NCBI RefSeq assembly: GCF_003340475.1
Contig: NZ_QBKA01000002.1
Coordinates: 2,241,501 to 2,305,500, forward strand
Direction: 5' to 3'
From: Alteripontixanthobacter maritimus
GTDB taxonomy: Bacteria; Pseudomonadota; Alphaproteobacteria; Sphingomonadales; Sphingomonadaceae
Length of the DNA: 64,000 nucleotides
Made by a program: the position numbers and the translations under genes. Every line of letters begins with the position of its first letter. Position 1 is the stretch's first letter. The notes under the pieces were generated by a model that saw nothing but the letters and a program-made list of their open reading frames with translations, searched no databases and was not told the origin of the DNA. This document shows positions 26,663 through 30,861 of this stretch, one piece after another.

Positions 26663-27373
26663 ATGGCCTACGCTGACCAAGAAATGAGCGGTAACAGGGT
26701 AATTGCCCTGATTATCGTCGCGCTGATCCATATCGGTGTCGGCTACGTACTGGTTACCGGCCTTGCCTTTTCCGCGGTTGAGAAGATCGTGGAGCGGGTG
26801 ACGACGGTAGATATCGAGGAACCGCCTCCTCCGGAACCGGAGGATGAACCGCCTCCACCGGAACCAGAAACTCCGGATGTGGCTCCCCCGCCTCCCGTTG
26901 CACCGCCGCCGCCGATGAATATCGCGCCAAGGCCACCTGACGTGCAGACGCAAATCAGAATTCCGCCACCTGCACCGCCGGCGCGGATAATTCCGCCGCC
27001 AGCACCGCCTGCGCGCGTAATTCCGCCACCTGCGCCGCCTCCGCCACCACCACCGCCACCACCACCGCCGTCACAGGCGCGCGGTGTTCAGCCTGAAGGC
27101 CAAAGCCGTTGGGCATCGCGGATCCAGGCCGATTATCCTTCGCGTGCGTTGCGCGCCGAAGAACAGGGCGTGGTCAGTATGTCGATTACGGTAGGCACAA
27201 ACGGCCGCGTGTCGGGATGCAATGTGACTGGCAGTTCGGGATCGAGCGAACTCGACAGGGCCGCCTGCCGCGGGATGGAACGTTATGCACGGTACAAGCC
27301 GGCGTTGAATGCTGCAGGCAACCCAATCGCAGCGACCATTTCGCAGTCCATTCGTTACGTTCTACCTGATTAA
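26663..27373 (+). CDS. tonB: TonB family energy-transducing protein
   Basis: Periplasm-spanning protein that passes proton-motive energy from ExbBD to outer-membrane receptors, 236 residues. A short cytoplasmic start precedes one membrane helix (about 13-33). A long Pro-rich spacer (about 52-140) includes a run of 12 prolines and three PPPAPPAR/PPPAPPP-type repeats. The C-terminal TonB domain (about 150-236) has YPSRALRAEEQGVVSMSITVG. It heads the tonB-exbB-exbD cluster; exbB follows after 36 bp. Confidence 0.93.
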   Translation: MAYADQEMSGNRVIALIIVALIHIGVGYVLVTGLAFSAVEKIVERVTTVDIEEPPPPEPEDEPPPPEPETPDVAPPPPVAPPPPMNIAPRPPDVQTQIRIPPPAPPARIIPPPAPPARVIPPPAPPPPPPPPPPPPSQARGVQPEGQSRWASRIQADYPSRALRAEEQGVVSMSITVGTNGRVSGCNVTGSSGSSELDRAACRGMERYARYKPALNAAGNPIAATISQSIRYVLPD

Positions 27374-27409: not shown

Positions 27410-28240
27410 ATGACAATCGACCTTCTTGCCGCTGCCGCGGAAGCCCCGAAGAACCAGTTCGGTTTCTGGGAAGCCATGGAACAGGGCGGTCCGATCGCCT
27501 GGGCCATCTTTGGTGTTCTGGTTATCATGTCCGTAGGTTCGTTCTACATCCTGTTCACCAAGCTGTTCGAACAGCAAAAAGTGCTCAACCAGTACAAGGA
27601 CGTACGCTCCTCTTTCTGGAAGACCAACTCGCTGAAGGATGGCGCTACCAAGCTGGAAAAGAACAGCGCATGGCGTCAGCTCGTCGACGACAGCATCGCG
27701 GCGCAGGATGATTACACCAAGATGACCGACAAGATGGAAGCGCATGACTACATCCACGGCACGATGGCCCGCTCGGAAGCAGCCATCAATGCCAAGCTGG
27801 CAAGCGGTCTTTCGTTCCTCGCATCGGTTGGCGCGACGGCACCGTTCATCGGCCTGCTGGGTACGGTGATCGGTATCTACCGCGCGCTGATCAACATCGG
27901 CCTCGCCGGGTCGGCTTCGATCGACAAGGTTGCGGGTCCGGTCGGCGAAGCGTTGATCATGACCGCCATCGGTCTGCTGGTCGCTGTGCCTGCAGTGCTC
28001 GCGTATAACTGGCTGCAGAGCCGCAATCGCAAGATTGCTTCGATGCTGACCGGTTTCTCGACTGCGCTTCTGGCCAACATTAACTCCGGCGGCAATGTGA
28101 AGCCGCAGGTTATGACCGCCACGTCGACCAAGACGGCCGGCCAGGCGGCTGCCAAGCCCGCCGCTACAAAGCCAGCGACCGCTCCGGCCCGTCCGGCTTC
28201 GACCACAACGACAACGACTACGGTTCCGCCGAAGCGTTAA
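27410..28240 (+). CDS. exbB: ExbB / MotA-TolQ-ExbB proton channel protein
   Basis: A 276-residue inner-membrane protein forming the pentameric ring of the TonB motor. An N-terminal helix lies at about 28-48 (IAWAIFGVLVIMSVGSFYIL). The paired C-terminal helices include FLASVGATAPFIGLLGTVIGIYRAL and GPVGEALIMTAIGLLVAVPAVLAYN, with the conserved Thr residues that line the proton path. The tail (from about 225) is Ala/Pro/Thr-rich and disordered. A good Shine-Dalgarno (GAGAGGAT) precedes the ATG. A hairpin follows the stop codon. Confidence 0.95.
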   Translation: MTIDLLAAAAEAPKNQFGFWEAMEQGGPIAWAIFGVLVIMSVGSFYILFTKLFEQQKVLNQYKDVRSSFWKTNSLKDGATKLEKNSAWRQLVDDSIAAQDDYTKMTDKMEAHDYIHGTMARSEAAINAKLASGLSFLASVGATAPFIGLLGTVIGIYRALINIGLAGSASIDKVAGPVGEALIMTAIGLLVAVPAVLAYNWLQSRNRKIASMLTGFSTALLANINSGGNVKPQVMTATSTKTAGQAAAKPAATKPATAPARPASTTTTTTTVPPKR

Positions 28241-28335: not shown

Positions 28336-28866
28336 ATGGCAGTATCCTTGGCAGGTGGCGGCGAGACGCCAATGTCGGACATCAACACCACGCCGCTGGT
28401 GGACGTGATGCTTGTGCTCCTGATCATCTTCCTCATCGCGGTTCCAGTTGCGATCCAGACCATCGAAAAGCTAGAAATTCCGGTGTTCGAATCGGTCGAA
28501 TCCAAGGACAAGGTTGAAAACCTGTTGCTGACTGTCTCGACCACGGACGAAGCCGGTCGCAGCGCAGGGGAACCTGGGTTCACAGGTGCCGCACGGCAAG
28601 GTGAATGCCGGGTCTATTTCAACAACACGACCCCGGTGACGTCGACCGAACTGTACGACCGTTCCTTCGAGCGGCTGGACACGATCGTAGAACGCGCAGG
28701 CGGTCCGGAAGCCATACTGGAAGATCCCGACCAGATTCCGCAGGTTCATATTCGCGGTGACGTAAATGCGCCGTGGCGCTGCGTCGCAGGTGCGATCTAC
28801 AACGTTCAGGCCGCTGGATATCCGACGGTCGGGTTCATTTCCAATCCAGTCGATCCGAACGGCTAA
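28336..28866 (+). CDS. exbD: ExbD proton-channel subunit, first copy, with enlarged periplasmic domain
   Basis: A 176-residue single-pass membrane protein. SDINTTPLVDVMLVLLIIF carries the essential transmembrane Asp (Asp23). The periplasmic domain is longer than in the other copies and has two cysteines (Cys91 in GECRVYF, Cys149 in WRCVAG) that could form a disulfide. It ends in GYPTVGFISNP, matching the GFVGN end of ordinary ExbD. It lies 95 bp after exbB. Confidence 0.92.
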   Translation: MAVSLAGGGETPMSDINTTPLVDVMLVLLIIFLIAVPVAIQTIEKLEIPVFESVESKDKVENLLLTVSTTDEAGRSAGEPGFTGAARQGECRVYFNNTTPVTSTELYDRSFERLDTIVERAGGPEAILEDPDQIPQVHIRGDVNAPWRCVAGAIYNVQAAGYPTVGFISNPVDPNG

Positions 28867-28939: not shown

Positions 28940-29389
28940 TTGACGATGGCAATGGCAGGCGGCAGCGACGACGGTTCGCCGATGCTGGACATGAACATGA
29001 CGCCGCTGATCGACGTCCTGCTTGTGCTCCTCATCATGTTCATCATCACCATTCCGGTGGCTACCCACGCGGTGAATATCGATCTTCCGCAACCAAGCCC
29101 GGACGATGACCAACAGATCATCGATCCGGTAAAGAACAAGCTTATTCTCACCCAGAATGACGAGATTCTCTGGAACGGCGAAGCGATCAACGAAGGGCAG
29201 CTAGTTTTCAATCTTCAGGAATCACTGAAGTTCGAAGTCGAGCCGGAACTGCAGTTCGAGCCAGAAGCACTCGCCAGCTACGATATCTCGGCGCGAGTGC
29301 TGGAGCTGATCAAGGCGTCGGGCGTCTCGAAGTTCGGCTTCGTCGGTAATGAAAAGTACCGCACCTTCGGATCGATCGCCGCGGAATAA
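28940..29389 (+). CDS. exbD: ExbD proton-channel subunit, second copy
   Basis: A 149-residue ExbD. DMNMTPLIDVLLVLLIMF has the membrane Asp (Asp23), and the periplasmic domain ends SGVSKFGFVGNEKYRTF. The ribosome site is weak, TTAGGAGT lying 11-18 bases before the ATG. It is 73 bp behind the first exbD and closes the canonical tonB-exbB-exbD-exbD cluster; a strong terminator follows. Its periplasmic half resembles the third copy (29886) much more than the first, so those two look like a duplication. Confidence 0.93.
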   Translation: MTMAMAGGSDDGSPMLDMNMTPLIDVLLVLLIMFIITIPVATHAVNIDLPQPSPDDDQQIIDPVKNKLILTQNDEILWNGEAINEGQLVFNLQESLKFEVEPELQFEPEALASYDISARVLELIKASGVSKFGFVGNEKYRTFGSIAAE

Positions 29390-29410: not shown

Positions 29411-29444
29411 CAAAAAGGGGGCGGAGCGATCCGCCCCCTTTTTG
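29411..29444 (+). terminator. Strong rho-independent terminator closing tonB-exbB-exbD-exbD
   Basis: A 15-bp perfect stem (CAAAAAGGGGGCGGA and its complement) with a GCGA tetraloop ends in TTTTTG. The A-run on the other side makes it look bidirectional. It starts 22 bp after the second exbD stop. Confidence 0.92.
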
Positions 29445-29598
29445 TATCTGCCTAACAGGCTAGCTTCCTGTGCCAACAGGATGGTCAAGCGTCACCAAGT
29501 CGAAGGCGCATTTAGCTAAGAGCGGTGGATGCGGTCGATCAGGTTGGGCTGGTACAGTCCGTACAATGGGCATGGTCGGCACGATAGGCATGGCGTCG

Positions 29599-29835: not shown

Positions 29836-29863
29836 TTGCCAAACTACAATATTTAGATATGTT
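29836..29863 (+). promoter_or_regulatory. Candidate promoter for the second exbD pair
   Basis: TTGCCA (29836-29841), a 16-base spacer and TATGTT (29858-29863) resemble a housekeeping sigma promoter in the most AT-rich stretch of the window, 22 bp before the exbD ATG. The short leader leaves just enough room for the GGGAGAAG ribosome site. Confidence 0.4.
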
Positions 29864-29885
29864 GTATCATGCATAACGGGAGAAG

Positions 29886-30326
29886 ATGATGGCCTTCGCA
29901 ACTTCGCATTCCGGCAGCGACCCCATGAGCGAACTGAATACCACGCCGCTCATCGACGTGATGCTGGTCCTGCTCATCATGTTCATCGTCACGATACCGG
30001 TGGCAACCCACGAAACCGCCGTCGACTTGCCCCAATGCGGCGCCAGATGCGACGATGTCGCATTCGACGATATCAAGAACAAACTCGTTATCACTCAGCA
30101 AGACGAGCTGTTATGGAACGGCGAGGCTATCAGCGAAACGCAGCTCCTGCGCGTGCTGCATGCCACTCGCAACGCTGCCATTGAGCCGGAACTCCAGTAC
30201 GAACCTGACGCACAGGCCAGCTACAGTACCGCCGCGAGTACGCTAAACCTGATCCGGCAATCCGGCGTAACCAAATTCGGTTTCGTGGGCAATGACCGCT
30301 ACCGCCAGTTCGCGCGTGCCGATTGA
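29886..30326 (+). CDS. exbD: ExbD proton-channel subunit, third copy
   Basis: A 146-residue ExbD. SELNTTPLIDVMLVLLIMF retains the membrane Asp (Asp24), and GVTKFGFVGNDRYRQF closes the periplasmic domain. It is clearly close to the second copy but has a Cys-x3-Cys insertion-like turn (QCGARCDD) just after the membrane segment. The Shine-Dalgarno is GGGAGAAG; the second Met is in frame (MMAF). It has no ExbB or TonB partner of its own nearby and overlaps the next gene by 35 bp, so the two proteins are probably made together. Confidence 0.9.
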   Translation: MMAFATSHSGSDPMSELNTTPLIDVMLVLLIMFIVTIPVATHETAVDLPQCGARCDDVAFDDIKNKLVITQQDELLWNGEAISETQLLRVLHATRNAAIEPELQYEPDAQASYSTAASTLNLIRQSGVTKFGFVGNDRYRQFARAD

Positions 30327-30861
30327 CCCCTGCCGGCGGGATCTGTTCGCAAACTACATCGAGCCGTTCGATCATGGCGAACCGATCTGGCGCCCCAACT
30401 TTGCGCCGATAGCCGGAGTCCTGATGATTGTCGGCATTCTGTTCTTCGCAGCATGGCCGGTGCAAACCCATGCACTACTCATCGATCTCCCGTTCCCGGG
30501 CTATGACGGCGAGGCTCCTCATTCGGACATGCCCGTGTATACAATCACAATTATGCCAACGGGGACGATTTATGTTGATGGTAATGTAGCACCCTTGAAT
30601 GCGCTTCCAAAGCGATTGGAAACGATTGCTAGCCTACCTACCGAAGCGGGAATTATCTTTGCACCGGCGGACAATACGGCAACATCCCAATGGTTGCCGG
30701 TTCTGGCAGTCATCAAAACGGCTGGACTTGCCAGCTGGCAATTCTGTTTTGGCGGCACCACAGCGAACCAGCGATACGAAGCCCTGGACGGCAAGACGAC
30801 AGCCGCAACGCCAAAGGAATGCAACCCGCGCACGAATTACCGGCCGGACCTTCACTGGTAA
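30292..30861 (+). CDS. Degenerate ExbD-like protein lacking the membrane aspartate
   Basis: A 189-residue single-pass membrane protein. NFAPIAGVLMIVGILFF...PVQTHALLIDLP lines up without gaps with NTTPLIDVMLVLLIMF...PVATHETAVDLP of the third ExbD, but the proton-path Asp24 corresponds to Gly42. The periplasmic part keeps the ExbD pattern (TGTIYVDGNV, VLAVIKTAGLASWQFCFGG). It has a longer N-terminus and C-terminus and Cys14, Cys152 and Cys177. The ATG lies inside exbD3; a GTG at 30316 would cut the overlap to 11 bp. Base composition is lower in GC than the neighbours. A non-conducting or structural ExbD partner is the inference. Confidence 0.78.
   Translation: MTATASSRVPIDPCRRDLFANYIEPFDHGEPIWRPNFAPIAGVLMIVGILFFAAWPVQTHALLIDLPFPGYDGEAPHSDMPVYTITIMPTGTIYVDGNVAPLNALPKRLETIASLPTEAGIIFAPADNTATSQWLPVLAVIKTAGLASWQFCFGGTTANQRYEALDGKTTAATPKECNPRTNYRPDLHW

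Follow-up and report, generated by a model that had tools for sequence, protein, structure and literature searches.

A conserved ExbD-related subfamily without the membrane aspartate behind the main Ton operon of Alteripontixanthobacter maritimus and its relatives

The DNA analysed here (the window) is a stretch of 64,000 nucleotides from Alteripontixanthobacter maritimus, and the genes and sites given below with window coordinates lie on its plus strand. Four genes form one run: tonB (26663-27373; TonB1 of the main Ton operon, Pfam TonB_C, 65.5 bits), exbB (27410-28240; Pfam MotA_ExbB, 104.8 bits; the sole exbB at the locus), exbD1 (28336-28866; Pfam ExbD, 50 bits) and exbD2 (28946-29389; Pfam ExbD, 70.4 bits). 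The products of the last two have the membrane Asp in the motifs PLVDV and PLIDV, respectively. The enlarged periplasmic domain of ExbD1 contains two Cys residues (GECRVYF and WRCVAG), unlike ExbD2. A terminator-like hairpin with a T run, recognized by eye at about 29416-29445 and absent from the scan output, lies 3’ of exbD2 at the beginning of a gap of about 500 bases. The gap ends at exbD3 (29886-30326; Pfam ExbD, 68.2 bits), which again encodes PLIDV and whose end is overlapped by exbD4 (30316-30861), an ExbD-type gene whose product is without the membrane Asp and has homologues in 25 further genomes. A helicase gene arrives from the opposite side.

An earlier note, made from the letters alone, had described the open reading frame at 30292-30861 as a 189-residue ExbD paralogue with Gly in place of the essential membrane Asp. 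The frame is present, but its start needs correcting: GTG at 30316, giving 181 residues and an 11-base overlap with exbD3, is preferred over the alternative ATG at 30292 because an ATG or GTG lies equally far from the exbD3 stop codon in four relatives (L009, L012, L013 and L025). The claimed gap-free alignment with the membrane region of the upstream ExbD3 was reproduced (PLIDVMLVLLIMFIVTIPVATHETAVDLP versus PIAGVLMIVGILFFAAWPVQTHALLIDLP), as was Gly at codon 42 (GGA, 30415-30417), where the window’s ExbD1, ExbD2 and ExbD3 have the proton-carrying Asp in the alignments. ExbB-ExbD and MotA-MotB motors are generally considered to depend on an axle Asp that lies in the membrane, and in ExbB5-ExbD2 motors protons pass by way of this Asp on each axle helix. 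The available excerpt of PMC9389320 states a membrane Asp on the axle for several members of the motor family.

Compared with the Pfam ExbD model (PF02472), a check that had been proposed with the original claim, the window’s ExbD4 scored 30.6 bits (E = 3.9e-7), over the curated cut-off of 25.4. Four relatives also pass (L064, 29.1; L081, 28.0; L082, 41.5; L077, 43.3), L070 falls just under the cut-off at 23.9 and L029 gave no match. The match to TIGR02803 (E = 5.7e-5) is far under the cut-off of that model, and BLASTP aligned ExbD4 with ExbD3 at 21% identity (E = 6e-9). Solved ExbD chains are the best structural relatives by family profile (E = 2e-15); the Gly column of the profile pairs with the Asp of P-F-I-D-V in these sequences, which we take to be Asp25 of E. 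coli ExbD. An AlphaFold2 model built on 76 aligned rows (mean pLDDT 81, pTM 0.57) has one membrane helix at residues 29-45, a periplasmic alpha/beta domain mostly above 90 pLDDT and a weakly modelled tail. When this model was searched against the PDB with Foldseek, ranks 1-7 were all periplasmic domains of ExbD or TolR, including ExbD with TonB (8p9r), with E-values of at most 0.008 for ranks 1-6, 0.12 for rank 7 and at least 0.2 for later ranks. The modelled domain agrees with the earlier claim that the periplasmic fold pattern is kept. Of the features of PF02472, ExbD4 has the single N-terminal helix and the ExbD-type periplasmic domain in its model, and it does not have the protonatable membrane Asp, the window having Gly and 25 of 26 homologues being non-acidic. 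A chance open reading frame was rejected as an explanation of exbD4 on the Pfam and fold matches.

The family was represented by 397 genomes, with the window’s genus represented by one genome. A single-protein search found longer frames directly behind exbD3-type genes, and 15 of these frames were built into an ExbD4 profile. Searching the same genomes with the profile gave 18 clear members at 151 bits or more, 15 of them already in the profile and three (G057, G207 and G077) not, and canonical ExbD proteins scored at most 133 bits; two further proteins at about 124 bits (G373 and G382) were assigned to ExbD4 by frame length, place and sequence. An order-level search added the ExbD4 proteins of G514, G529, G589, G594, G596 and G607; G013 is missing from its result because an E-value of 2.1e-39 narrowly exceeds the threshold of that search. 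A class-wide search of 337 genomes at a strict threshold, which scored 8 to 10 candidates per genome so that weak members would escape, matched only the window and G013, of the same family, and scanning the genomes of named species with the single protein turned up no relative. As a lower bound, ExbD4 homologues are found in 26 genomes of 10 genera in one family, the window included.

The gene order tonB-exbB-exbD1-exbD2-(exbD3)-exbD4-Lhr helicase was identical in all 20 loci checked. Sequencing error or a local point mutation was rejected in view of 25 homologues, 24 of them non-acidic, and a recent phage or plasmid origin was rejected on the evidence of the same chromosomal place in the 20 genomes checked. 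An Asp-bearing exbD3 lies 5’ of exbD4 in 18 of the 20 loci. In the remaining two exbD4 is intact; in G358 (L064) an in-frame stop interrupts exbD3, whose membrane segment is also missing, and no exbD3 was found in G164 (L077), so ExbD4 does not always need ExbD3. Conversely, 18 of 40 further genomes without exbD4, drawn from the top canonical rows of the family profile search, have exbD3, so ExbD3 does not need ExbD4. ExbD3 thus often occurs without ExbD4, and ExbD4 rarely without ExbD3. One of the 40, G102 (L032:2528-3112; the same genome as L175), has another protein in the exbD4 slot, with 30% identity to the window’s ExbD1, no Asp motif and a PF02472 score of 24.1 bits, just under the cut-off; judged by its sequence, it is an Asp-less derivative of ExbD1.

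The residue at the Asp column varies. Among 19 aligned ExbD4 rows it is Ala in eight, Gly in six, Ser in two and Ile, Leu and Phe in one each; the broken copy of G057 has Gly, and six later rows (G514, G529, G589, G594, G596 and G607) have two Gly, two Ser, one Leu and one Asp, the last in G594. The column is therefore non-acidic in 25 of 26 homologues. The earlier note had asked for a survey of whether Gly is conserved; it is not (G, A or S, rarely I, L or F), and Gly as a conserved functional residue was rejected. Asp at this position, or a stop codon, had been named there as signs of a local mutation or a decaying gene. Each sign occurs once among the 26 (Asp in L165 of G594 and an in-frame TAG in G057), and the rest are clear of both. 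In L165, the only ExbD4 homologue with Asp, the codon is GAC and its two tree neighbours have GGT or GGC; the exbD3 of this genome is intact and keeps its Asp. The Asp row groups with the two Gly rows at 100/98, and since it is nested among Gly rows, it is probably a reversal, which is likelier than retention. The Asp motif was counted, without filtering, in 40 of 40 ExbD2 and 18 of 18 ExbD3 of the exbD4-less genomes; a separate Asp count over 58 ExbD2 and ExbD3 rows is circular because those rows were chosen by an Asp-containing pattern.

In a tree of 25 ExbD4, 11 ExbD3 and 11 ExbD2 rows, ExbD4 occupies one side of a branch supported at 100/99; many ExbD4 branches are long, and the tree tool warns of long branches meeting. 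In the pairs compared, ExbD4 changes more rapidly than either ExbD2 or ExbD3. This fast evolution and the long branches are what would be expected of a paralogue under relaxed selection that is drifting to loss, with the missing Asp as the first step of decay. The patchy presence of ExbD4 (at least 20 of 397 family genomes), the stop codon of G057 and the 18 of 40 sampled genomes with exbD3 alone fit the same explanation. It nevertheless has to accommodate open frames in 25 of the 26 members, a single clade that spans 10 genera, an Asp position that is non-acidic throughout that clade with one exception, and an Asp-less protein of another kind in the same slot of G102. A check of dN/dS, which had also been proposed, covered 18 ExbD4 pairs within genera and gave a dN smaller than dS in every one, with dS close to or past saturation in most of them; dN and dS were 0.40 and 1.88 in the least diverged pair, dS was infinite in three pairs, and G013 (genus g14) and the later-found members of g78 and g41 were left out. 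A periplasmic-domain Gly is invariant in 19 of 19 ExbD4 rows, HA..DLP is also conserved, and a cytoplasmic DHG motif occurs in 14 of 19. Drift to loss, which is further opposed by the invariant Gly, the dN/dS result and the Cys pair described below, is in our judgement quite unlikely. The claim that ExbD4 is not simple decay gains support from one clade, one gene order in 20 genomes, the non-acidic column and dN below dS; ExbD4 forms a conserved subfamily of ExbD relatives that lacks the membrane Asp.

A pair of Cys residues is present in 25 of 25 intact ExbD4 rows, one at or beside FCF, adjoining the last strand, and another close to the C-terminus; the window’s ExbD2 and ExbD3 have FGF instead of the first and are without the second. 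The Cys pair may indicate that ExbD4 acts away from the ExbB pore: anchored in the membrane, it would serve in the periplasm as an adaptor for docking a TonB paralogue or receptor, with a disulfide fixing its C-terminal tail. Such an adaptor would suit a periplasmic domain that is modelled confidently and matches ExbD domains solved with TonB, as well as a helix that tolerates G, A, S, I, L and F at the Asp position. The membrane segment, however, aligns without gaps with pore-lining ExbD helices and keeps the flanking Pro and THA..DLP, and this suggests the same packing as in those helices. We regard an adaptor outside the pore as distinctly improbable.

The stretch 5’ of exbD3 contains, in many loci, palindromes resembling ATGTTAT-N3-ATAACAT. 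These include the core GTTA-N5-TAAC, which is used for Zur in the excerpt of PMC4176598, and resemble the gamma-proteobacterial Zur box quoted in the available part of PMC3516566. With up to two mismatches the pattern occurs in 1 to 6 places per genome in eight relatives, versus 0 or 1 for a reversed control; in G000 there was no match within two mismatches and the reversed control gave two per strand. For scoring we used a matrix of 14 sites 5’ of genes other than exbD, omitting L112 and L113, which have no evident zinc link, and one overlapping site. The matrix scores above 14 in the gap downstream of exbD2 in 16 of 20 exbD4 loci, using a Zur-type consensus that was picked after the stretches 5’ of 20 exbD3 genes had been viewed and with which the 14 matrix sites were found, and above 14 in none of the 20 stretches 5’ of tonB1; this control is not wholly empty, since scores of 11 to 12.6 are reached in three tonB1 stretches, each from genus g78. 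Because the consensus was chosen after the other gaps had been seen, only five exbD4 loci test the operator freshly (G164, G207, G077, G373 and G382), and three of these five score above 14. In the exbD4-less genomes, where the scored stretch was bounded at fixed distances, 8 of 18 with exbD3 and 0 of 22 without it exceed 14. The genome with the ExbD1-derived slot protein, G102, has an operator-like site 5’ of its exbD3.

In the window itself the match is weak. The site at 29854-29870 has 9 of 14 consensus letters, and 178 of 300 shuffles, which keep base composition only, were as good. It scores 9.1 (rank 3 in the window) with the non-exbD matrix and 11.3 (rank 1) when the exbD3 sites of relatives are added. 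It overlaps a promoter-like match at 29836-29863, of a kind found twice versus about one expected by chance.

Scoring used the Zur-type consensus alone and no Fur or IscR matrix, and the operator is read as zinc-type because of the genes that it adjoins. The sites inspected away from exbD3 comprise 15 stretches in seven genomes and leave out two places in G358 and one in G015. One site adjoins a TonB-dependent receptor with His/Glu-rich loops, for which ZnuD is both the best NCBIfam model (302 bits versus a cut-off of 950) and the best PDB match (E = 2e-43). Four adjoin TonB-like genes (three Pfam-checked), paralogues that lie away from the main operon (L101, L104, L108:6591 and L111; L115 in the window’s genome) and are candidates, by this shared predicted site, for the TonB that works with ExbD3-ExbD4. 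Six lie beside merC-like genes (L100, L103, L105, L107, L109 and L110; L114 in the window’s genome; one merC Pfam-checked), each divergent from a gene that we take to be heme A synthase-like, and since the operator lies between the two genes, the zinc regulon of the family may include the MerC-type protein. The operator also adjoins genes for a SIMPL protein and a 344-residue protein (L108), an operator-like site in G337 (L106) precedes a small His-rich exported protein and then an outer-membrane efflux gene, and L112 and L113 have no evident zinc link.

Candidate regulators are present as well: at least two Fur-family genes were found in each of the 13 genomes examined. For the second Fur paralogue of G000 and G377, Zur is the nearest NCBIfam model, under its cut-off, and that of G000 matched the Fur-family regulator 7dh7 (E = 2e-20), which we presume to be a Zur, and then E. 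coli Zur (E = 1e-12) in the PDB. In the window’s genome the matrix scores 25.4 at merC, 15.2 at the TonB paralogue and 17.6 at a receptor with 56% identity to the ZnuD-type receptor of G013. On these better sites, a zinc-type regulon is likely in the window’s organism. The excerpt of PMC6103462 asks for Zur binding or zinc-dependent expression as proof of membership in a Zur regulon, and zinc control of the window’s own exbD3-exbD4 is putative.

These comparisons establish a conserved Asp-less family with its gene order, modelled fold and constraint, and an operator-like site in relatives; a pairing of ExbD4 with ExbD3, assembly with ExbB, a motor with one Asp, a zinc role and any zinc control in the window’s organism are inferred. 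ExbD4, which has no proton site in the membrane and whose frame overlaps the 3’ end of exbD3, would most likely provide the second axle helix of an ExbB pentamer, the other coming from an ExbD with Asp, usually ExbD3; the overlapping frames favour coupled synthesis of the two. The result would be an alternative Ton motor with one protonatable Asp versus two, whose periplasmic face, formed with ExbD4 and its Cys pair, may be tuned to another TonB or receptor. Given the Zur-type operator in most relatives, zinc shortage would switch on this motor, and the TonB paralogue and the ZnuD-type receptor that have the same operator would be driven by it. ExbD4 may thus be a naturally occurring spare part of a motor for zinc uptake. 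The reading that we tentatively prefer, while holding it to be somewhat short of an even chance, is that ExbD4 is produced together with ExbD3 as an Asp-less partner subunit of a Ton motor linked to zinc. Its fullest form, a rotary motor with a hetero-axle of one Asp-bearing ExbD3 and one Asp-less ExbD4 in ExbB5, made in zinc starvation, running on half as many proton sites and driving a TonB and a ZnuD-type receptor of its own, is doubtful. The Asp-less derivative of ExbD1 that occupies the slot in another lineage suggests that an Asp-less partner may have been selected twice.

The two genomes that keep exbD4 without an intact exbD3 (G358 and G164) weaken the partner reading. They suit an action on the main motor, in which ExbD4 is an inhibitor or governor: taken into ExbB pentamers together with ExbD1, ExbD2 or ExbD3, it would poison these or slow them down and so spare proton motive force at times when TonB paralogues and receptors are turned on. 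The absence of a proton site in ExbD4 and the fact that the sole exbB at the locus belongs to the main operon are also consistent with inhibition. However, the Zur-type operator is common to uptake genes in most relatives, where more motor activity would be expected rather than less, and one row, that of G594, has Asp again. We consider inhibition unlikely and prefer the partner reading over it, as over drift to loss and an adaptor outside the pore.

A conserved subunit of axle type that is naturally Asp-less would make it possible to test whether one Asp per dimer suffices; it would also raise the questions of what determines the heterodimers of one ExbB ring and of a metal-specific gear change of the motor. 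In relatives, the apparent tie between exbD3-exbD4 and a zinc regulon provides a growth condition for testing.

ExbD4 resembles known ExbD/TolR proteins (PF02472) of the ExbB5-ExbD2 Ton motor in family, single helix, periplasmic fold and placement in a tonB-exbB-exbD cluster, and differs from them in the missing protonatable Asp and in a Cys pair and C-terminal tail that are absent from the ExbD2 and ExbD3 of the locus. An Asp-less ExbD family was not named in the literature titles and abstract openings searched, which is weak evidence of absence. A core operon of the same kind with two ExbD proteins, tonB1-exbB1-exbD1-exbD2, is described for Sphingobium SYK-6 in the available excerpt of PMC8599685, according to which it could not be disrupted; the excerpt lists three exbD-like genes, of which exbD3 is tolR, and describes no counterpart of exbD3-exbD4. 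The AglQ/AglS gliding motors of Myxococcus likewise have two MotB/ExbD-type subunits per stator ring; in the part of PMC9389320 available, both are predicted to carry the conserved Asp, unlike ExbD4, and formation of heterodimers is left open. The zinc link is not new in kind, since a Ton operon linked to Zur is reported for Acinetobacter baumannii in the excerpt of PMC3516566: TonB1-ExbB1-ExbD1, beside ZnuD-type receptors, has a predicted Zur box, and its tonB is induced by zinc limitation. There, by the same excerpt, a whole tonB-exbB-exbD operon is concerned, whereas in the relatives studied here it is an ExbD pair behind the main operon, one member of which is Asp-less.
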